Virus record (IMG/VR): IMGVR_UViG_3300046665_000305
Span: 55,576 to 119,575 of that record
Strand: one strand, 5' to 3'
DNA: 64,000 nt
Origin: a virus
In this document: positions 1 to 59,800 of the stretch, one piece after another
Numbering within the stretch: the first letter of the stretch is position 1
Layout of the letters: every line of letters starts with the position of its first letter
Notes under the pieces: generated by a model
What the model saw: the letters and a program-made list of their open reading frames with translations, nothing else
Told to the model about the DNA's origin: nothing
The model's database searches: none
Translations under genes and position numbers: made by a program

Positions 1-113
1 TCGATGACGAAAGTGGTAGCGCCTTCACCACGCTTGGATATGAATCCAAGGAACAACTAATTAATGATCTTATCGCTGCTGGTATTGGCCATCGTCAAAT
101 TGACGAAATTTAA
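1..113 (+). CDS. 3' end of a truncated hypothetical gene
   Basis: The window opens inside this frame (first full codon at base 3), which runs 36 codons to a TAA. The visible C-terminus is acidic, then helical, and ends in RQIDEI. The start lies outside the window and no family is recognised. Confidence 0.7.
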   Translation, partial: DDESGSAFTTLGYESKEQLINDLIAAGIGHRQIDEI

Positions 114-13458: not shown

Positions 13459-13708
13459 ACGTCATCTATTCACTATGCCTGAGCCTATCCCGGAACGGGA
13501 GTGGAGCGGACCACTGAGAGATTGGGCCATGGTTTATCTGTTTCAAGACTATGTGAAACAACGTAAGCTCTTGAATTATAACAGATTTTTCAATGAAAAA
13601 GAATGGCCTAGAATGAAAGAAATAAAACTTCGCCGGATCGCGGATTTTGAAACTAATTGGCCATTATTCAGAGAGACATATGAGGAGCATTACGAGAAAA
13701 GGTCTTGA
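13436..13708 (+). CDS. Hypothetical protein, 90 aa
   Basis: MIDLTKIKRHLFTMPEPIPEREW: helical and basic. ATG at 13436 overlaps the previous gene by 23 bases; an earlier start only reads that gene out of frame. Its stop lies inside the next promoter. Confidence 0.65.
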   Translation: MIDLTKIKRHLFTMPEPIPEREWSGPLRDWAMVYLFQDYVKQRKLLNYNRFFNEKEWPRMKEIKLRRIADFETNWPLFRETYEEHYEKRS

Positions 13709-24242: not shown

Positions 24243-24559
24243 TCATCATAGATTTGAATGAGGTAGAGGAAGATAAGAGAGTCCTCTATATCGGCTCTAA
24301 GTTGCTCGACATGGAGCTTTACGTTACGGGCTGCATCATTGATCGGGGTGAAAAAATTAAACTAATAACATATAATGATTATCTAGACAGGACTGAAATT
24401 ATTGCTTTGATGACAATTGTCTTGCTTCACGGTGGGGAGCGCTTCACGTTCGATAGTATCGAGGTAGGCGTTGAAGAACGTTGGGACCGGGGCAGAGATG
24501 GCACGCCTGACATGTATCTCGTTAAACGGCTGGCCGGGGTGTTTAAAGTAGAATCTTAA
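24239..24559 (+). CDS. Hypothetical protein, 106 aa
   Basis: MIIIDLNEVEEDKRVLYIGS, alpha/beta. Coupled by ATGA to the preceding gene. It converges with the minus-strand pentapeptide gene, overlapping by 4 bases. No family recognised. Confidence 0.7.
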   Translation: MIIIDLNEVEEDKRVLYIGSKLLDMELYVTGCIIDRGEKIKLITYNDYLDRTEIIALMTIVLLHGGERFTFDSIEVGVEERWDRGRDGTPDMYLVKRLAGVFKVES

Positions 24560-25131
24560 GCGGCACTGTTAAACACAAAATAATCACCGTCAGACTTCTT
24601 TACCAAATTAGTTAAATCTTTTGGTATGCTAGTCTTTTTAAATATGACGTTTTTAAATCTTGCATGATCCAGCTTTAAGGCGTAAGTCTTGTCGCAGTGG
24701 AGGAATGAGACATTGACAAGATTGGTATGTCTTAGATCGAGAATGTCTATGTCACAATTGAGAAAAATCACGTCTTGAAGAGTGCTGCCGTGGAACGAAA
24801 CGTCGTTTAGATTACAATTATTATAAATTGTATCTCGGTATTTTTTGTCGGTCTTTTTCATCCGGGTCAAATCTTCACCGTCATAGGTGATATATTTCTT
24901 ACTATCAGATAGGAGAGGGGCAATGTCCCACTTGGCATAGAAGTGAGACAAACACTGTTTAACGGAATAAAGATCATCTCCGGGGCTCAGGAGGCGCAAG
25001 TGCCGCATCGTGACAATGATATCGCAATCATCGATGTACGCGCCACGGCTCGTTATATTGAACGGGATGACGACTTGACTCGTCTTAAGGTACTCATTGC
25101 CACACAGGACTTGATATCTGTCTTCATTCAT
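24556..25131 (-). CDS. Pentapeptide-repeat protein
   Basis: A 191-residue protein whose C-terminal ~90 residues repeat the A(D/N)LxF-like pentapeptide rhythm: CNLNDVSFHGSTLQDVIFLN, CDIDILDLRHTNLVNVSFLH. Pentapeptide repeats fold into a right-handed quadrilateral beta-helix; some members mimic DNA and bind gyrase. That role is only a possibility here. Second gene of a two-gene operon, overlapping the first by 8 bases. Confidence 0.75.
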   Translation of the reverse strand: MNEDRYQVLCGNEYLKTSQVVIPFNITSRGAYIDDCDIIVTMRHLRLLSPGDDLYSVKQCLSHFYAKWDIAPLLSDSKKYITYDGEDLTRMKKTDKKYRDTIYNNCNLNDVSFHGSTLQDVIFLNCDIDILDLRHTNLVNVSFLHCDKTYALKLDHARFKNVIFKKTSIPKDLTNLVKKSDGDYFVFNSAA

Positions 25132-26044
25132 AATAGCTAATTCTTCTCTTCTCTAATTTTTCGCAATGCATGGCCAGAACTTCTCGGCGCAGCATCTTAG
25201 ACACAATAGCGAGCCGAAGGTCAAGGACTTCTGTCACTAGGGCGGGGAACTTTGTGAACCTGATCATCGCGCCGTCAAAGGTGTTACGGCCTTCGAAGTC
25301 AGTATCGACCAGTTCGACACCATCAAAATACGTTTTGTTGAAGTCGCAATTATTGATGACGCAGCGAATAAATTTTGCCTTAGTCATGCTCTTGCCGGAA
25401 AAGTCAACATCGTTGAATTCGCACTCGATAAAAATTTCACCATCAAGCACGTCTTCGAAATAAGACTCTTCATCATAGGTGACATGTTTGTGGACCCACT
25501 CAGCCATTCTATCTTGTTTGTTAAACATGACGCGGCAACTGGTGGAACAAAATTGGGCCGTGGCGCGGCTAGCGCCAAACTCGTCTCCGCAATAATTGCA
25601 CATCTTATTATGATTAATTGTTTTAGCCGCATCTTCGGCAATAGGCAGATTTTTAATTCTTCTATGTTCGGCGGCGCAGTTCGGGCCGCAATAAATTTGC
25701 CTACCGTGATGCTTGATGAAGTTGGGAGTGTCGCATAACGGATTGAGACAGGTAGCGTTGCGCTCCGTGTCGGTCATGCCATACTTTTCGTTATAATTGT
25801 GACGATTGGCATGATCGGCGCAGCAAAATAATTTAGGCCTACCCTGTACCACTTTGGTAGAATAAGTGATAATCTCTTCACAATTTGGAAGGAGACACTT
25901 TTTCTGAGACGCGGGACGGAACCTGTACCGCTTCAATCTCATGTGACATTTAGGGCTACAAGTTTGTTTCTCGGCCTTGGAGGCGAGGAATGTTTTACCG
26001 CAATCCGGCGCTTTACATTGTAATTCGTGTTTAATATTGGTCAC
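25124..26044 (-). CDS. Multi-zinc-finger pentapeptide-repeat protein
   Basis: A 306-residue protein. The first ~185 residues hold four Cys/His clusters (CKAPDCG...CSPKC; CLLPNC...CCADH; CLNPLC...CGPNC; CNYCG...CSTSC), each like a treble-clef or zinc-ribbon finger. Residues ~200-270 are pentapeptide-like (FIECEFNDVDFSGKSMTKAK, CDFNKTYFDGVELVDTDFEG). A fusion of serial zinc fingers to a beta-helix is unusual. Driven by the consensus promoter at 26079. Confidence 0.75.
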   Translation of the reverse strand: MTNIKHELQCKAPDCGKTFLASKAEKQTCSPKCHMRLKRYRFRPASQKKCLLPNCEEIITYSTKVVQGRPKLFCCADHANRHNYNEKYGMTDTERNATCLNPLCDTPNFIKHHGRQIYCGPNCAAEHRRIKNLPIAEDAAKTINHNKMCNYCGDEFGASRATAQFCSTSCRVMFNKQDRMAEWVHKHVTYDEESYFEDVLDGEIFIECEFNDVDFSGKSMTKAKFIRCVINNCDFNKTYFDGVELVDTDFEGRNTFDGAMIRFTKFPALVTEVLDLRLAIVSKMLRREVLAMHCEKLEKRRISYYE

Positions 26045-26078: not shown

Positions 26079-26107
26079 ATTATAGCATAACGAAATCGTT
26101 TTGTCAA
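26079..26107 (-). promoter_or_regulatory. Full-consensus sigma70 promoter
   Basis: On the minus strand: TTGACA, exactly 17 bp, TATAAT. The spacer contains the inverted repeat AACGA-TT-TCGTT, a possible operator. Drives the pentapeptide pair. Confidence 0.9.
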
Positions 26108-26139: not shown

Positions 26140-26426
26140 ACCTTCAAAACTTCTTAGGAAACTGTTGTTGTTTACTCCTATCTATTTTAAATTAGTGAAA
26201 GATTTCAATGGCTTAATTTTTAAACCTCCGCTCTAATTCCAGTTATATGTTAAAATGATGATTAGGATTTGTTACGATTTCTGAAAAGCTGAGAGACGAT
26301 TTTTTGGACTTTTTAACAGTTATATGGAATTTGAGAGAGGGATATTTTATTATATTATTGATTTTATTAACTAATATAGAATAGATAGGAGTAAACAGTA
26401 ACGATTTGCTAAGAGTTTTCGAAGGT
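26140..26426. repeat. 287-bp imperfect palindrome
   Basis: The outer arms 26140-26186 and 26380-26426 are near-perfect 47-bp inverted repeats with an uninterrupted 18-bp match (26169-26186 with 26380-26397). Pairing continues inward with mismatches (AATTCC/GGAATT and GTTAAAA regions), leaving a central loop of about 50 bp near 26260-26310. No coding potential. Candidates: origin or cruciform, a miniature mobile element, or a long structured RNA. Confidence 0.75.
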
Positions 26427-26550: not shown

Positions 26551-26674
26551 ATCAACCAATATCTAAAATCCACCAGCCTAATTTCTCCCATCGAGAACTT
26601 TGATGTCAAGGACATTTAACATCAACCAATATCTAATGTCTGCCAGCCTAAAATCCACCAGCCTAATTTCTCCC
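26551..26674. repeat. Interleaved direct repeats
   Basis: A 16-mer beginning ATCAACCAATATC occurs at 26551 and 26621. A 25-mer beginning AAAATCCACCAGCC occurs at 26565 and 26650. Between the second pair sits an extra partial copy (GCCAGCCTA). Non-coding; lies between the palindrome and the next promoter. Confidence 0.7.
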
Positions 26675-26695
26675 CCGTAGGGGGTTACAAACGGC

Positions 26696-36392: not shown

Positions 36393-36902
36393 ATGGATAA
36401 AGTATACACTGTTTATAAAATAACTAATAACATCAATAACAAATACTACATTGGAGTGCATCTAACTAATAATCCTTACGATGGATATTATGGCTCTGGC
36501 GTAGCCATTAAACAAGCAATAAAAGCACACGGTAAACATAATTTTAGAAAAGAAATACTATTCATAACTTCTTCTAAAGAAGAAGCTTATTTAAAAGAAA
36601 TTGAATTAACTAATGATTACGATAAAAATTTCACCTACAATATGCGCTTAGGCGGTGTAGGTGGATTCACTTCAGAAGCAGCAAAAGCTGGCGCTGAGAA
36701 ACGATTAGAGTTACACGGCCCGCTTAAAGGACGTAGCCCTGCATTGTTTTTGACCAAAGAAGAGCTTAGAGAAAATGGCAGGAAGGGTGGTTTAAAATTA
36801 AAAGGTAAACCAAAGTCGCCTGCTCATGTTGAGGCTATGAAAGAATCTTATAAAAGGCGAAAACAAGTTTTGGTAGAGGATGCTGGAATCGAACCAACGT
36901 AG
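36393..36902 (+). CDS. GIY-YIG homing-type endonuclease
   Basis: A 169-residue protein. VYKITNNINNKYYIGVHL (residues ~7-24) is the GIY-YIG strand pair, followed by YYGSG and KHNFRKEIL with the conserved Arg/Glu region. The C-terminal half has two NUMOD3-like GxxKSP/GRSP turns for DNA contact. Lone plus-strand gene among minus-strand ones; its last 32 bases run antisense into the CAT tRNA. Confidence 0.8.
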   Translation: MDKVYTVYKITNNINNKYYIGVHLTNNPYDGYYGSGVAIKQAIKAHGKHNFRKEILFITSSKEEAYLKEIELTNDYDKNFTYNMRLGGVGGFTSEAAKAGAEKRLELHGPLKGRSPALFLTKEELRENGRKGGLKLKGKPKSPAHVEAMKESYKRRKQVLVEDAGIEPT

Positions 36903-36945
36903 AAACGGTTATGAGCCGCAGGCACTACCATTGTGCTAATCCTCC
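36871..36945 (-). tRNA. tRNA with CAT anticodon (Met or Ile2)
   Basis: Acceptor GGAGGAT/ATCCTCT, D stem GCA/TGC, anticodon stem TGCGG/CCGTT around CTCATAA, T stem GTTGG/CCAGC with TTCGATT, then ACCA encoded. It lacks obvious initiator features. Elongator Met and lysidine-modified Ile cannot be told apart by eye. Confidence 0.85.
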
Positions 36946-38287: not shown

Positions 38288-38364
38288 TGGTAGGCGCTGA
38301 GGGACTTGAACCCTCGACCCTCTGCTTAAAAGGCAGATGCTCTAACCAACTGAGCTAAGCGCCC
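38288..38364 (-). tRNA. tRNA-Lys (TTT)
   Basis: Standard 77-nt tRNA: acceptor GGGCGCT/AGCGCCT, D stem GCTC/GAGC, anticodon arm TCTGC-CTTTTAA-GCAGA, T loop TTCAAGT, ACCA encoded. Normal in every part, unlike its neighbours. Confidence 0.92.
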
Positions 38365-38780: not shown

Positions 38781-38867
38781 TGGTACGGGCTACCGGACTC
38801 CAACCGGTACGACACAAAGGTCAACAGATTTTAAGTCTGTCGTGGCTAGCAATTACACCAAGCCCGC
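38781..38867 (-). tRNA. tRNA-Leu (TAA)
   Basis: 87-nt class-II tRNA: acceptor GCGGGCT/AGCCCGT, D stem GTG/CAC, anticodon arm ACAGA-CTTAAAA-TCTGT, long variable arm, T stem TACCGG/CCGGTA, ACCA encoded. The T loop reads TTGGAGT rather than TTCGAGT, an unusual change at the conserved C56. Confidence 0.88.
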
Positions 38868-46289: not shown

Positions 46290-46292
46290 CGC

Positions 46293-48793: not shown

Positions 48794-49099
48794 ATGGCAA
48801 GAGTCCATAGCAGAACGGATTTTCAGTTTGAAGTTGTCAAAGGATATCCGCGTTTTTGTCGCGCCGCCTATGCCGTGATTATCACACAATCAACGGCTTA
48901 TCCCGATGAACGTTGCTTGTACCATATCGAGACCTTCTATGGTGACAATGGCGTCAAGTTGCGTGCCGAGGCGCGGCGCTACGGTCGCGCCATTGTAACA
49001 GGCAAACGCGGCGTAGAACGCTACCGCGACCAATATTTGCCTACCATATTCCCTTACAAGGATTTGCCGAAACGAGAAAATGAGGTAGAAATCCGTTAA
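48794..49099 (+). CDS. Hypothetical basic protein, 101 aa
   Basis: MARVHSRTDFQFEVVKGYPR, alpha/beta, strongly basic middle (KLRAEARRYGRAIVTGKRGVERYR). No family recognised. Confidence 0.75.
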   Translation: MARVHSRTDFQFEVVKGYPRFCRAAYAVIITQSTAYPDERCLYHIETFYGDNGVKLRAEARRYGRAIVTGKRGVERYRDQYLPTIFPYKDLPKRENEVEIR

Positions 49100-49113
49100 A
49101 TTAAAAAAGCCTA

Positions 49114-49156
49114 TTGACCATGTAAGGAAAAGCGTTTAAGTTCCTTACATGGTCAA
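49114..49156 (+). promoter_or_regulatory. Palindromic promoter, copy 1
   Basis: TTGACCATGTAAGGAA (49114-49129) and its exact complement (49141-49156) flank an 11-base centre. Within it TTGACC, 17 bp, TAAGTT forms the promoter. The same 16-bp arms recur at 49976, 50796 and 51223. Repressor binding across the arms, or a 5' RNA hairpin, would control the downstream gene. Confidence 0.8.
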
Positions 49157-49172
49157 CAAAGGAAATACGGAA

Positions 49173-49391
49173 ATGGCAACGCCTTCTCACATTGTGGAAA
49201 TTCATCTTCCTGAAACGCACGGAGGCGGAATGAAGACACAATTCATTTACGGCGGATTGGAAAACGCAAAGTCGTTTATCCGTTCCAAGCTTTCGCTTTC
49301 GGAAGATGTAGCGCTTAAGCACAAGCATATTTACCACGTGCTCGTTTATGGCGGCCATCCTCATGAATTCGTTTACAGTGCAGCCGGTTAA
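49173..49391 (+). CDS. Hypothetical protein, 72 aa
   Basis: MATPSHIVEIHLPETHGGGM; ATG 49173 behind AAAGGAAATACGG. The ATG at 49149 lies in the palindrome and is rejected. Mixed fold with several His. No family recognised. Confidence 0.7.
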   Translation: MATPSHIVEIHLPETHGGGMKTQFIYGGLENAKSFIRSKLSLSEDVALKHKHIYHVLVYGGHPHEFVYSAAG

Positions 49392-49403
49392 GCCTTTAAA
49401 TTT

Positions 49404-49421
49404 GGCGCTCAATGGAGCGCC
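49404..49421 (+). promoter_or_regulatory. Intercistronic hairpin
   Basis: GGCGCTC-AATG-GAGCGCC, then ATTCTTAAACGCTTGAAAG before the next ribosome site. Confidence 0.6.
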
Positions 49422-49451
49422 ATTCTTAAACGCTTGAAAGAGGAAAGCGCT

Positions 49452-49673
49452 ATGTGTGACACTCTCATTAAAAACGAAATCAGCGACATTGTAAGCCGTC
49501 TGCGCTGGCAGGAAAGCCGAGATGGTACGGTTTGCCATGAAACGCGTTACAACGCGATGTGCAAGGCTCTAGGCCTTCTTAATCGCGTATCGGTTCCGGC
49601 AAGCTTTACCAGAACGCGCCGCGCGCTTTTCAGTGTCATGAATGAAGCCAAAAATAATTTGGCTGGCATGTAA
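49452..49673 (+). CDS. Hypothetical basic protein, 73 aa
   Basis: MCDTLIKNEISDIVSRLRWQ, all-helical. Start set by GAGGAAAGCGCT. No family recognised. Confidence 0.7.
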   Translation: MCDTLIKNEISDIVSRLRWQESRDGTVCHETRYNAMCKALGLLNRVSVPASFTRTRRALFSVMNEAKNNLAGM

Positions 49674-49681
49674 GAAAACGT

Positions 49682-49710
49682 TTGCAAGTCGCTTAGAATC
49701 GTGACATTGT
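49682..49710 (+). promoter_or_regulatory. Promoter, CATTGT type
   Basis: TTGCAA, 17 bp, CATTGT, then AATTATCGAAACAAGAGG. Confidence 0.6.
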
Positions 49711-49737
49711 GAATTATCGAAACAAGAGGAAACGGAA

Positions 49738-49971
49738 ATGCGGCCTTACAAAATGACTGAGAATCGCGGTTTGCAGCCCGACATGTCGGCAGTGCTTTAT
49801 GTGAAGCGCGACACTATGACAGACCTTTGGCGTTTGGCTTGGATGACTCCAAACTCTGATTCCTACTGCTATGCAGAAGGCGAATGCAGCGCAAAGCTTT
49901 TCAAGCGTCGTTATGAAGCCGTTGCCTATGGCAAAAAGGCATATGGCGAAACTGCAAAAAATTGGAAGTAA
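49738..49971 (+). CDS. Hypothetical protein, 77 aa
   Basis: MRPYKMTENRGLQPDMSAVL, alpha/beta; C-terminal basic helix. CAAGAGGAAACGGAA upstream. No family recognised. Confidence 0.75.
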   Translation: MRPYKMTENRGLQPDMSAVLYVKRDTMTDLWRLAWMTPNSDSYCYAEGECSAKLFKRRYEAVAYGKKAYGETAKNWK

Positions 49972-49975
49972 GCTA

Positions 49976-50018
49976 TTGACCATGTAAGGAAAAGCGTTTA
50001 AGTTCCTTACATGGTCAA
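49976..50018 (+). promoter_or_regulatory. Palindromic promoter, copy 2
   Basis: Same arms and centre as copy 1 (49976-49991 and 50003-50018). Confidence 0.8.
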
Positions 50019-50033
50019 CAAGGGAATACGGAA

Positions 50034-50255
50034 ATGGCTCGCAAGATTAAAAACGACAAAATCGAAATTGGCGATTATGTCATGATCGTAAAAGGCGTTG
50101 ATAATGGTTGGCCAAAAAATGAAGGTTGGGTAGGCATTCTTGACAACGAATTTGTTAAGGATGGAATTACTCAATATGCCGTCGTTTCTGAGAACTACGA
50201 AAACGACGACATTTTCTATTATGCAGCGGAAATTAAATTGTTCCAAAAGGCTTAA
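50034..50255 (+). CDS. Hypothetical beta-protein, 73 aa
   Basis: MARKIKNDKIEIGDYVMIVK...GWPKNEGWVGIL: a KOW/SH3-like small barrel pattern. AAGGGAATACGG upstream. Function unknown. Confidence 0.75.
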   Translation: MARKIKNDKIEIGDYVMIVKGVDNGWPKNEGWVGILDNEFVKDGITQYAVVSENYENDDIFYYAAEIKLFQKA

Positions 50256-50267
50256 GGAGCTAGGGCA

Positions 50268-50588
50268 ATGGCAAAGTATTTTACCGTAATGCAAGGCTTG
50301 CGTGGCTGTTACATGCCAGATAGCGTTAATGTTATCAAGTGCGACACAAGGCGCGAATTGAAAAACGCGATTGAATGGGAAGCGCGCGATATTCGTGAGG
50401 CTGGATTCATTGGCGCAAACAAGAAAGGCGTTGCTGCGCTTGCCGCTCATATGTGGCGCGAGGCAAAGAAGGAAAAACCGTCTTTCTATCCTAATGTTCT
50501 GCCCTATGGAACAAAGGGAAACTATCACTCCGCAATTCATGTTTCCGTGGCAACACGGCGCGAATATCTGGAACAACAAAACGACTAA
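50268..50588 (+). CDS. Hypothetical protein, 106 aa
   Basis: MAKYFTVMQGLRGCYMPDSV; RRELKNAIEWEARDIREAGF then a basic helix. I recall this opening from alphaproteobacterial phages; unknown function. TTAAGGAGCTAGGGC upstream. Confidence 0.75.
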   Translation: MAKYFTVMQGLRGCYMPDSVNVIKCDTRRELKNAIEWEARDIREAGFIGANKKGVAALAAHMWREAKKEKPSFYPNVLPYGTKGNYHSAIHVSVATRREYLEQQND

Positions 50589-50599
50589 ACCGCAACATT

Positions 50600-50621
50600 G
50601 CCGCTCCAATGGTGGAACGGC
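50600..50621 (+). promoter_or_regulatory. Intercistronic hairpin with C-A mismatch
   Basis: GCCG-C-TCC pairs with GGA-A-CGGC around a 6-nt loop, again with a C-A mismatch. Confidence 0.55.
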
Positions 50622-50650
50622 GATAGCTCTACAACAAAGGAGTTAAGAGC

Positions 50651-50776
50651 ATGTCGCAGAACAAAATGAACAAGAAGGCAATTCAGGACGCGCGCCGGAA
50701 CAAGACAGCTAGACGCAACGTTTTCGCCTTTGTCGCGGCTGATAAGCGGGAAGGCGTTGAAAAGCGCTATTATTAA
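50651..50776 (+). CDS. Basic hypothetical protein, 41 aa
   Basis: MSQNKMNKKAIQDARRNKTA, very basic helix. AAAGGAGTTAAGAGC upstream. Plausible RNA- or DNA-binding peptide; no family recognised. Confidence 0.65.
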   Translation: MSQNKMNKKAIQDARRNKTARRNVFAFVAADKREGVEKRYY

Positions 50777-50795
50777 AAATTCCGCTTTATGCCTA

Positions 50796-50838
50796 TTGAC
50801 CATGTAAGGAAAAGATTCTATCTTCCTTACATGGTCAA
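50796..50838 (+). promoter_or_regulatory. Palindromic promoter, copy 3
   Basis: Same 16-bp arms; the centre differs (AAGATTCTATC-like), giving TATCTT as -10. Confidence 0.8.
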
Positions 50839-50860
50839 CCGCATTAAAGGGAATACGGAA

Positions 50861-51208
50861 ATGGAACGCAAATTTTTCTGCAACTATTTGGGCGGTCGTG
50901 AATATACCTTTGCCGAAGCTAAGGCCGAATCTGGCGAGCTTGCGCTGCAAATTCATGACCTATGTTGCTGGCCTATCGAAGCTGGAAAGCTTCGCAAGGA
51001 AAAGAATGATCTTGACCATGGAATCGTGACTCATATGGTTACGCTCCTTTCTGAGCAAATGCAGGAATGCGGCAAATACACGAAAGAGGAATGCGCCGCA
51101 AATTGGACTTGGTTCATGGCAAAGAACATTGAAGGCAAAGACAATTTGCCGCTCCTTAAGGCATTCCGTGAAAGCCTGAAAAATCGCGAAATTCAGCCTT
51201 GCATTTAA
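50861..51208 (+). CDS. Hypothetical protein, 115 aa
   Basis: MERKFFCNYLGGREYTFAEA, all-helical after a short strand, five Cys. AAAGGGAATACGG upstream. No family recognised. Confidence 0.75.
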   Translation: MERKFFCNYLGGREYTFAEAKAESGELALQIHDLCCWPIEAGKLRKEKNDLDHGIVTHMVTLLSEQMQECGKYTKEECAANWTWFMAKNIEGKDNLPLLKAFRESLKNREIQPCI

Positions 51209-51222
51209 TTTTAAAAAACCGC

Positions 51223-51265
51223 TTGACCATGTAAGGAAAAGAATTTAAGTTCCTTACATGGTCAA
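51223..51265 (+). promoter_or_regulatory. Palindromic promoter, copy 4
   Basis: Same 16-bp arms (51223-51238 and 51250-51265), -10 TAAGTT. Confidence 0.8.
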
Positions 51266-51281
51266 CAAAGGAAATACGGAA

Positions 51282-51560
51282 ATGGCACATATCTTTACCG
51301 CTCCAAAAGGTCAGAAAATCACTCTTGACGATATCGCTGAAAAGCGTCCTAACGCCAAGTTTCTTGACAAGGCCATTGTTTTCCATCGTGGCGCATATTT
51401 CATCGCAGAATTCATCTGCACTCAGTCTCATGATTATTCGTGGGCCATTCGCCACGAATATGGCTTTAAGAGCGCTTTTGAAGCTCTTATTGAGTGTGAA
51501 GGCGTTACCATGACAAATGGGACTTGGCTTAGGGCAAATCACTGCATCGCAGTCTATTAA
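51282..51560 (+). CDS. Hypothetical protein, 92 aa
   Basis: MAHIFTAPKGQKITLDDIAE, alpha/beta. AAAGGAAATACGG upstream. No family recognised. Confidence 0.75.
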   Translation: MAHIFTAPKGQKITLDDIAEKRPNAKFLDKAIVFHRGAYFIAEFICTQSHDYSWAIRHEYGFKSAFEALIECEGVTMTNGTWLRANHCIAVY

Positions 51561-52706: not shown

Positions 52707-53093
52707 ATGTCTGAATTCACGAAATACATCAATGAAGCTCGCGCAAAAGGCGATTTAGCTACGGCGCGCCGGATCAAAATGGAACGTGCTATTTGTAGCG
52801 CTCTTGTCAAAGCTGCGCTGGAACGCGGCCTAGTTTGCAGCGTTTACGATGGCGGCGCATGGCCGGTCAAAAAATCGGCCAAATATTCCGAAATCATGAA
52901 CGCTCTTTTCACAACCGATTCCGATGTGTTGCAACTCCGCAATGCGGAAGGCGTTTCTATGGGCCGCTTTGACCTGATCTACGGTAACGATGGCTATGAC
53001 GTGGTTGCTGATTATACCGTGACTGAGACCACGGAATCGCTCTGGCAAGAGGTTATAAACCCCCTTTCTGAGAAGCTAGAACGGCAGGGTTAG
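52707..53093 (+). CDS. Hypothetical protein, 128 aa
   Basis: MSEFTKYINEARAKGDLATA, helical start; RIKMERAICSALVKAALERG, then YDGGAWPVKKS and a beta C-terminus. ATG 52707 preferred over 52701 for spacing from AGAGG. No family recognised. Confidence 0.75.
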   Translation: MSEFTKYINEARAKGDLATARRIKMERAICSALVKAALERGLVCSVYDGGAWPVKKSAKYSEIMNALFTTDSDVLQLRNAEGVSMGRFDLIYGNDGYDVVADYTVTETTESLWQEVINPLSEKLERQG

Positions 53094-53101
53094 CAGCCCC
53101 G

Positions 53102-53133
53102 CTAGGCCATGCTCCATATGGGCCATGGCCTAG
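53102..53133. repeat. 9-bp inverted repeat
   Basis: CTAGGCCAT/ATGGCCTAG, 14-nt loop, followed by short ATGCATAT tandem repeats (53155-53185). No U-run. Confidence 0.5.
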
Positions 53134-53210
53134 CCTACCTAGTGCATGGTATGGCATGCATATATGCATATATGATATGCACTATGTATCATATATGAAT
53201 ATATAATAGA

Positions 53211-53269
53211 TTGAATAGATGTAAGATAATGTATTGCGTTATCTTACATTGTTCTATATAGTCTATTCA
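53211..53269 (+). promoter_or_regulatory. Promoter within nested palindrome
   Basis: TGAATAGA/TCTATTCA (8 bp) encloses GTAAGATAA/TTATCTTAC (9 bp). TTGCGT (53234), 17 bp, TATAGT is the likely promoter, lying across the right half. Confidence 0.6.
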
Positions 53270-53295
53270 TACACAACACATAAGGAGTAAGGCGC

Positions 53296-53469
53296 ATGCG
53301 TAAACAGATTGGTTATTTCTTCTCCGATATCAGCAACTGCTTTGCTACTGCTATGGCTTGCGGGCTGGCATACATGATGACTACTGATCACGTTGCGCCT
53401 TACATCATACGTGAACTAGCTAAGCTAGCAGCGCATGCCGCATACACTGCAATCATTAATATGTTCTAA
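53296..53469 (+). CDS. Hypothetical protein, 57 aa
   Basis: MRKQIGYFFSDISNCFATAM, two weakly hydrophobic helices, possibly membrane-associated. TAAGGAGTAAGGCGC upstream. No family recognised. Confidence 0.65.
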   Translation: MRKQIGYFFSDISNCFATAMACGLAYMMTTDHVAPYIIRELAKLAAHAAYTAIINMF

Positions 53470-56836: not shown

Positions 56837-59800
56837 ATGGCACGCGTTTCAGTAGAAACTTTACCACCAGCCCCGGTTGACGCTATCGCTACAGGATCAT
56901 TACTTCTTGTAGATGATAATGGTGTACCTTACAAAGTTCAAATCTCCGACATTAACAGCGGCGGCGGAACCGGCGCTAGTTTGCTCGTCAGAACAGATAC
57001 GACGCCAGTTGTTACAGGTCGTTTGCTTTCTCCCGGCAATCTTGTCGAAGGCCAGAACGTTTCCCTTTCACTCGATGGCGCTGCGGCTAAAACTGCCGTT
57101 ACTGATGCCAATGGTGACTTCACTTACGATTTCACAGCTTTCGGCACACGCGGTATCGACCACACCCTTAAAGTAACAGCTTCAGCTTTCCTAATTAAAA
57201 ACGTTACGGGTTGGCATTGGGACCTCCTTGCCGCCAATACTGTTGCCCCTGTCACAACTGGTTCAGCCATTGTCGGAAGCACTCTAACAGTTAATCCGGG
57301 AACTTGGGCCAATAACCCAACGACTTTCCTATATCGTTGGCTCAGAGGCTCGTACCTTATCCCCGGCGCGAACGCAAGCACTTATACACTTCAAGAAGAC
57401 GATGACTTTGACAATATTACGGCTCAAGTTGCAGCTGTTAATACTGCTGGCACATCGGCTTGGGTTAGTGCCAATGCTATCGGACCTATTGCTTATTTAG
57501 ACACGGCTGTAACCACAGCCCCTTCATTATCTGGAACTAACCTTATCGGCTCTGAAATTGCAGTCGTTCCGGGTGTTTACACTAATTTTGCTAAAGAGGC
57601 AGCTTGGGAATGGCAAGCTGATGGTATTAAAATTAACGACACTAGATCGCCAAAAAGATTTTATGCTCAGACCGTAGCAGCTTTCGGCACACTCCCTCAA
57701 GGTCAAAACTATACCAGAGGATTTTCGACATCTGCATATGGTGGTTCTAACACAAACGCTTCTTCTGTTTCACCTTTCACAACTGAAAGTGATTACTACT
57801 ACTTGCCCGGTACTACCGCCGCTGGTCAGAACGATGGGCCGCAGCTTTATTCTGCAACTATTAAAAGCTCAAGCCCTAACTCACAGATGAGCGTTAGAAT
57901 TTATGCGGCACGAGTCGACTCAGCCGGCACGGTTCAAGGCTCAGAAGTTCAACTAGTTCACGGCACATTGGGAACCGCAGCTATTCCTGCCACGACAGGT
58001 GTGATCACAACCTCTGTGACTGCCGATTTAGGCGCGTGGGCCAGTACTGATCTCCTTCGTATAAGACTTGCCATGACAAACATTGGGTCTGGTTCTAATA
58101 ACTTCACGGTTGATCCCACTGCTGGCCAGTCCTACATTGATGTTCCTTGGGGCGCTTACACAGGTCTTGCACTTGGTAAAAATAAATTTACGTCTCGCGC
58201 CGAACACGCCGGTAAAGCTATTACTGCCAAAGTTACCTATTCAAACACGAGCTTTACACACAATGTCACGACAGCTGGTATCACTCTAGAAGGCTCTACG
58301 GCTCAAACCCTTGCGCCTGCCAATCTAGTTATTCCGGCCATCACAGCGACTGAGACGCGAGTCGGTGTGGCTCACAACATCACACTTGGTTCGTGGAATC
58401 ACCAGCCAACCACTTTCGCGATGCAGGTTCAGTTAGAAGCTACGCTAAATGCTGGCGATTGGGCCAACGTCTCTGGCGCAACCACTTCTATCTATGTTCC
58501 CGCCACTGGCGATGTTGGTAAGAGAATTCGTGTCGGCGTAACAGCAACAAACGGCATTGGTTCAACCACGGCTTATTCTGCTCCACTAACTGTTTTAGGT
58601 CCAGCAACATATTACGATCTAGCCGGTGGTAATGATGGTTTCGATGGTCAAACTCCTGACACGGCAAAGCAGAATCTAACCGGAACTGGTTCAATCACTT
58701 CAAGTGGTTCCGCCCTCCTTAAGCGTGGTTCGTCTTGGGCCACTGCTCTAGTTGTTGGCGCGAGCCGCACCTATGATGCTTATGGCACTGGTGGTTATCC
58801 AACCATTGGCACTGGTGTTACTTTCGGTATCGACCAATACACAGACGGCACTCAAGGCCTAAGCAATGTTACGATTAAAAACCTGAACATTGCTGGCAAC
58901 CAGCGCGGCCTTCAGCAGCGTCAGGGTAGCAACTGGCTCATCGAAGATTGCTTCTTCGATCCTTGCGGCTATGTCGCGAAGAATGAAAACTCACAAGGCT
59001 TGTTCTTCCAAAACGGTAACGACATTACACTTCGTAGAGTTACACTAGATCGTGTTTGGTCCGATGGTATTTACCTAGATAACACAGATAGAGTAATTCT
59101 AGATACGGTTAACACCAAGCCAGTCTTCTCTCCCGAAGGTGACGCGGTTCAGTTACGTGAAGATCGTTTCACGACTAAAAACCGTGGTTTCATCGCACGC
59201 GGCTGTTTCCTCGACATGGCTAGCGTTAAAACTAGCTCAGGTAAGGGTTGCCTCGTTACGAACATGGCGAGCTATGTCTATAGTCATGACAATAAACTAG
59301 ACGGTAATAACTTCGTAAAGGGTACAGACGAAGGTGACTTCCACGTATTCTGCCGTAATAAATGTACTCATGCCAAAATGAATAGCTACTCATTTGGTTA
59401 CGGTATTGGTGGTTACGATAACCAAGGCGGCTCACTGAGTCACGAAATTTACGACAACACTTGGTACGACATTAACAGAGCCCACTCTTATTCTGGTATT
59501 TCTGTTTCTGGTTACGTTGGTAAGCCTTATCGTGCCGATATCGCGGTTCATGACGAATTGATTTGGAAGTGTGCCAACGGCATCAGCATTGACAGACCTA
59601 CTTCAGGTATTTTCAGAGGTATTGTGTTCCACAACGTCACAACCACTTTGAGACGTACTGATACTAATGTACCAACTGCTGGTACGATGCAGAGCTTCAC
59701 TTGGTCCGATCACTTTATCTACAAGGGCGTAGTTGTTGCTCCTCCTCCGATTGTTACGCGCGCCGTGGTCACTGGAACTCGCGCCGTTGGTCAATCACTT

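Follow-up and report, generated by a model that had tools for sequence, protein, structure and literature searches.

An uncultured bacterial virus carries a pair of overlapping genes, P1 and P2, of which the first appears to encode a new domain architecture built from known modules, a serial zinc-finger array fused to an acidic pentapeptide-repeat (PPR) beta-helix. P2 encodes a second pentapeptide protein whose helix is basic. The explanation that we favor, with a probability of roughly 35%, is that the locus is inherited vertically within a group of large tailed phages and probably encodes an early-expressed nucleoprotein regulator, in which P1 binds an adjacent inverted repeat and P2 is recruited through charge. 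Pentapeptide helices act as DNA mimics that control topoisomerases, and to our knowledge their role in phages is mostly undescribed. The fusion, the partner helix of opposite charge and the co-evolving hairpin together provide a compact, testable case for the role of phage PPR proteins and for their nucleic acid or enzyme targets. The window referred to throughout is the whole stretch of DNA analyzed, 64 kb, corresponding to bases 55576-119575 of a 119,575-bp IMG/VR virus record.

Domain architecture of P1 and P2

P1 (25124-26044, minus strand) is an open reading frame of 306 aa with a GTG start, for which Pfam and alignment predict four treble-clef-like zinc fingers, followed by a pentapeptide beta-helix of acidic character and a tail at the C-terminus. 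The putative finger array (residues 10-183; 25496-26017, minus strand) was delimited by Cys conservation and weak profile matches, and its Cys/His clusters lie at residues 10-34, 50-82, 99-127 and 149-170 (fingers 1-4, minus strand: 26017-25946, 25897-25799, 25750-25664 and 25600-25535). The spacing of the cysteines is unremarkable for the composition of the protein, as the 7 Cys pairs were equalled or exceeded in 768 of 20,000 shuffles. Instead, the fingers are credible because four lineages, at about 64% identity, share all 16 of their cysteines without change, and the four Cys-cluster units described in the initial annotation are thereby confirmed. Profile matches to the treble-clef families DUF2116, NinG and CGNR in Pfam were weak and sub-threshold (18.4 bits for DUF2116, cut-off 26.8), and the best PDB match to finger 4, a finger of Polyhomeotic-like 1, was also weak (E 0.03). 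P1 therefore resembles FCS/DUF2116/NinG-type treble-clef fingers in its Cys spacing and in these weak matches (to DUF2116 in 4/4 members), but it differs in that every match falls below the curated cut-off and in carrying a serial four-finger array fused to a PPR.

The pentapeptide region of P1 (residues 204-267, about three coils; 25244-25435, minus strand) matched Pfam PF00805 (Pentapeptide) with an E of 3.8e-5, and its register score was attained by 0 of 20,000 shuffles, which bears out the earlier proposal of pentapeptide repeats following the fingers. The structural model of P1 had a pLDDT of 36, and both the predicted beta-helix and the predicted zinc sites rest on sequence. The helix is the most conserved part of P1, with a dN/dS of about 0.04-0.05 where estimable compared with 0.12-0.16 for P1 as a whole.

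P2 (24556-25131, minus strand; 191 aa) overlaps the P1 reading frame by 8 nt. It consists of an N-terminal domain of about 78 residues, outside named families and highly conserved in the four lineages, followed by a basic pentapeptide beta-helix (residues 79-172; 24616-24897, minus strand) that was assigned from Pfam (PF13599, Pentapeptide_4, E 1.8e-11) and from an AF2 model with a pLDDT of 83. None of 20,000 shuffles attained its register score, and the A(D/N)LXX-type repeats of both proteins run in tandem in a single register. The best structural match to the model was MfpA, on which residues 80-179 superposed with a Z of 12.4 and an rmsd of 1.7-1.8 Å over 94 residues. The adjoining second pentapeptide protein of the initial annotation thus stands, and as far as a predicted structure can show it, its quadrilateral right-handed PPR beta-helix is confirmed. 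The model also superposes on HetL, SV2, AlbG and Qnr, and therefore the fold is confirmed while the function is not.

In 4/4 lineages the finger region of P1 is basic (pI 9.1-9.6), the P1 helix is acidic (pI 4.2-4.4) and the P2 helix, opposite in charge to that of P1, is basic (pI 8.8-9.6). As a sign of contact between P1 and P2, this opposite charge is only suggestive. In a profile comparison with hhalign, residues 169-250 of P1 aligned with residues 59-148 of P2 (E 4e-6), a likeness compatible with either a common origin of both helices or a generic resemblance between repeats.

Previous work has shown that gyrase is bound by both Qnr and MfpA, the latter mimicking DNA, and that YacG is a zinc-finger inhibitor of gyrase (PMC10886550). 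The pair could accordingly be directed at a host topoisomerase, as the initial annotation suggested. In that case the acidic helix of P1, by itself or together with P2, would fill the DNA site of gyrase or topo IV in the manner of Qnr and MfpA, and the fingers would add a YacG-like contact to gyrase. Consistent with this idea, the modelled P2 shares with MfpA and Qnr the right-handed quadrilateral fold, which is predicted from sequence for P1, MfpA was the best match, and the P1 helix is acidic with a pI of about 4.3. Furthermore, finger 4 is a CxxC...CxxxC finger like that of YacG, and the NCBIfam model of YacG, which like MfpA is a known gyrase binder, matched it weakly in 3/4 members (best E 0.024; about 14.3 bits, with 79 needed). 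In contrast to MfpA and Qnr, the P1 helix is fused to four zinc fingers and that of P2 to an unassigned N-terminal domain, the P2 helix is basic, and the PPR parts span only about 94 residues in P2 and 64 in P1. This is at most about half the length of the solved chains of Qnr and MfpA (approximately 180-215 aa), which dimerise through a C-terminal helix. The Qnr and MfpA family models matched over 50-80 residues at 13-28 bits, far below their cut-offs of 240-500. YacG appeared neither among the Pfam results at E 10 nor in the PDB search with finger 4, and it differs from P1, which carries four fingers and a PPR helix. The PPR fold is also common to many functions, since HetL, SV2 and secreted effectors match it as well. 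Because the family tests for Qnr/MfpA and YacG fail, we keep topoisomerase control as a rival rather than a verdict and consider it unlikely.

Local PPR similarity was also found to HalA of the Hailong defence system (NF051894, E 4e-4, 20 bits against a required 250) and to the SV2 luminal domain (E 1e-3). A link to Hailong HalA was rejected, as only the PPR stretch matches well, a generic likeness of fold.

A conserved locus near the terminase gene

In the window, the pair lies in the neighbourhood of genes for HNH (29231), RuvC (29923) and TerL (31124), and it is oriented opposite to the surrounding gene direction. TerL is most like that of Sphingobium phage Lacusarx (43%), followed by those of a Microcystis phage and roseophages (40-42%), and a Rhizobium phage gene carrying the annotation 'polysaccharidase' shares 45% identity with the 1190-aa gene found at 56837. 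Since TerL and the 1190-aa gene resemble those of these phages, the host is probably an alphaproteobacterium. Lacusarx, the nearest isolate by TerL, has no PPR or zinc finger annotation around its own TerL.

The P1/P2 pair was found in five IMG/VR contigs (L002, L003, L004, L015 and L016). L002, L003 and L004 represent the same phage or nearly so, and therefore the pair is known from four lineages including the window. At 63-66% identity, these lineages have all kept the gene order, the 8-nt overlap and the orientation against the flow of the surrounding genes. Most neighbours of the pair in L003, L015 and L016 are shared with the window, defining a single syntenic locus near TerL, RuvC and HNH, and each of two long records searched held one copy of the pair. 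In distant comparisons, where it could be estimated, the dN/dS of the pair was approximately 0.12-0.17, with synonymous sites often saturated, which indicates that the pair is under purifying selection.

A more distant relative, L034 (TerL 79%), was found with TerL as bait. The corresponding locus of L034 encodes a P1 with 24% identity to that of the window (E 5e-15), in which three of the fingers are intact, the fourth is degenerate and a PPR helix is present. Its second ORF, of 109 aa, overlaps P1 but is not recognisably a PPR protein and has no sequence kinship to P2; thus P2 is not universal. The first finger of this P1 (L034:4370-5287) is similar to the third in P1 of the window (CxNPLCxxPNF), a sign that fingers may have been lost or shuffled. 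Long AARAAGDAARAA-type repeats rich in alanine occur in another ORF of this contig (L034:2295-3113).

Outside this group, tblastn against 50,697 phage records in INPHARED recovered no relatives of the pair, and plasmids yielded weak PPR-like matches only. Bacterial genome contigs held no relatives of four query sequences, and five queries returned two plain PPR proteins lacking fingers. A search for zinc-finger and pentapeptide fusions, by which the initial annotation could be checked, likewise found no further example among INPHARED phages, plasmids and GTDB genomes.

The pair is preceded by a sigma-70-type promoter (26079-26107, minus strand; motif scan) with the full consensus TTGACA-17-TATAAT and a TG before the -10 element. 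As the initial annotation stated, the consensus is complete and the promoter runs against the local gene direction; it is the sole full consensus in the 64-kb window, where 0.02 would be expected. At the matching position the relatives have TTGACA-17-TACAAC or TTGACA-17-TAAGCT. TTGAC...GATGTAAGAATA elements recur at 13704, 17383, 19273, 22162 and 23375, with a related pair at 46292/46999, and these look like the regular plus-strand promoters of the phage, unlike the consensus promoter of P1/P2.

The isolated orientation and the pair's own promoter had led to the suggestion of a mobile or toxin/immunity cassette. Against this suggestion, the neighbours are largely shared in all close relatives, the pair is under purifying selection, no integrase or transposase was recognised nearby, the PADLOC models gave no match, and the phage records and bacterial genomes searched contain no relatives, with weak PPR-like matches only in plasmids. 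We therefore regard a cassette of this kind as very improbable. Based on the syntenic position in three further independent phages and on purifying selection, we conclude that the pair occupies a stable locus in a group of uncultured bacterial viruses, and that a visibly mobile cassette is unsupported.

The strong, host-type promoter also agrees with an anti-defence function, in which P1 and P2, made early, would bind or mimic nucleic acid and so disarm a defence sensor, nuclease or restriction enzyme of the host. The predicted nucleic-acid-binding and mimic-like modules fit such a function, and no housekeeping homologue was found. However, neither protein matched the PADLOC models, which cover defence rather than anti-defence proteins, and purifying selection at a fixed position is less typical of accessory genes engaged in an arms race. 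An anti-defence role is thus doubtful in our estimation.

A long inverted repeat upstream of the pair

Directly upstream of the promoter, and before the next plus-strand gene, lies a long imperfect inverted repeat that was absent from the initial annotation (26140-26426, about 290 bp; repeat scan and folding). Its arms, of 116 nt each (26140-26255 and 26311-26426), are 72% complementary and separated by a 55-nt spacer. No inverted repeat in the 119.6-kb record is longer; the runner-up in the window has 46-nt arms, and the other 55 kb contain only a 28-nt pair. Each strand folds much more stably than its shuffles (z -7.0 and -9.5).

Inverted repeats occur at the corresponding position in L003, L015 and L016. 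In a four-way alignment of the repeats, 93% of cells were paired in the true register compared with 34-48% when slid, and pair changes on both sides numbered 11 compared with 1-5 when slid (shuffles mean 4.5, with 0 of 500 as high), although the 41-pair structure was derived from this same alignment, which favours the true register. Counting all columns in one register gave 186 Watson-Crick cells and 15 double-change columns, compared with 71-97 and 2-5, respectively, in twelve neighbouring registers. Additionally, L034 has a larger hairpin of unrelated sequence upstream of P1 at the matching position (z -15.3 and -13.0). A long inverted repeat upstream of P1 thus persists even where the sequence similarity of the repeat itself is lost.

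The hairpin may act as RNA or as DNA. The strand divergent from P1/P2 folds better in 5/5 lineages, but shuffles of the two strands differ too, so that composition explains much of the effect, and the operon strand in L003 shows no folding advantage over shuffles (z -0.9). Likewise, G-U over A-C counts in the repeat showed no significant bias, at 23:12 in one test (p 0.23) and 10:10 in another.

It is also conceivable that the inverted repeat has nothing to do with the proteins. It would then be a relic of mutation whose palindromic form is maintained by template switching, or else an origin or other replication element. Quasi-palindrome correction is a known mutational process and one that also yields compensatory changes (PMC3820800); it could keep the arms alike without any function, and the lack of significant G-U bias would be in keeping with this. 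Nevertheless, a long inverted repeat recurs in place in five lineages, in one of them with an unrelated sequence, and nothing comparable exists elsewhere in the 119.6 kb. GC skew, in which an origin of replication was sought, shows no clear switch at the repeat. We consider a repeat unrelated to the proteins unlikely.

With the AT-rich repeat core as a search pattern, the five pair-bearing contigs and L024 were recovered; the match in L024, which encodes neither P1 nor P2, was rejected as chance. Short direct repeats lie past the hairpin in the window (26551-26675), in L015 (L015:4300-4441) and in L034 (L034:6190-6500).

Proposed role of the pair

In the nucleoprotein regulator that we propose, host RNA polymerase would transcribe the pair early in infection, and P1 would grip nucleic acid with its fingers, most likely at the adjacent inverted repeat, in the form of DNA or of an RNA hairpin transcribed from it. 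Association of the acidic helix of P1 with the basic one of P2 would bring P2 to the P1-bound nucleic acid, with autoregulation or the diversion of a host nucleic-acid enzyme as the possible outcome. The proposal draws on the retention of the pair, its overlap, its orientation and most flanking genes in L003, L015 and L016, on the basic fingers, the weak Polyhomeotic-like match of finger 4, the opposite helix charges (4/4 lineages) and the P1/P2 profile likeness, and on the co-positioning of an inverted repeat in all five lineages, including the unrelated one in L034. Against it, P2 is missing in L034, and five lineages are a small sample.

A more specific version, in which a dedicated zinc-finger/PPR protein binds a co-evolving hairpin transcript of about 290-430 nt, P2 docks by charge, and the resulting new kind of phage ribonucleoprotein serves early on to decoy or switch a nucleic-acid machine of the host, is distinctly improbable.

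Elsewhere in the window, Rfam matched tRNAs only, and three tRNA genes lie on the minus strand (36874-36945, 38291-38364 and 38784-38867). The dyad TTGACCATGTAAGGAA...TTCCTTACATGGTCAA occurs four times in 49096-51287, interspersed with small genes, and is probably a phage operator or promoter family. In a 300-nt scan, the top fold residual on both strands was at 53001-53400.
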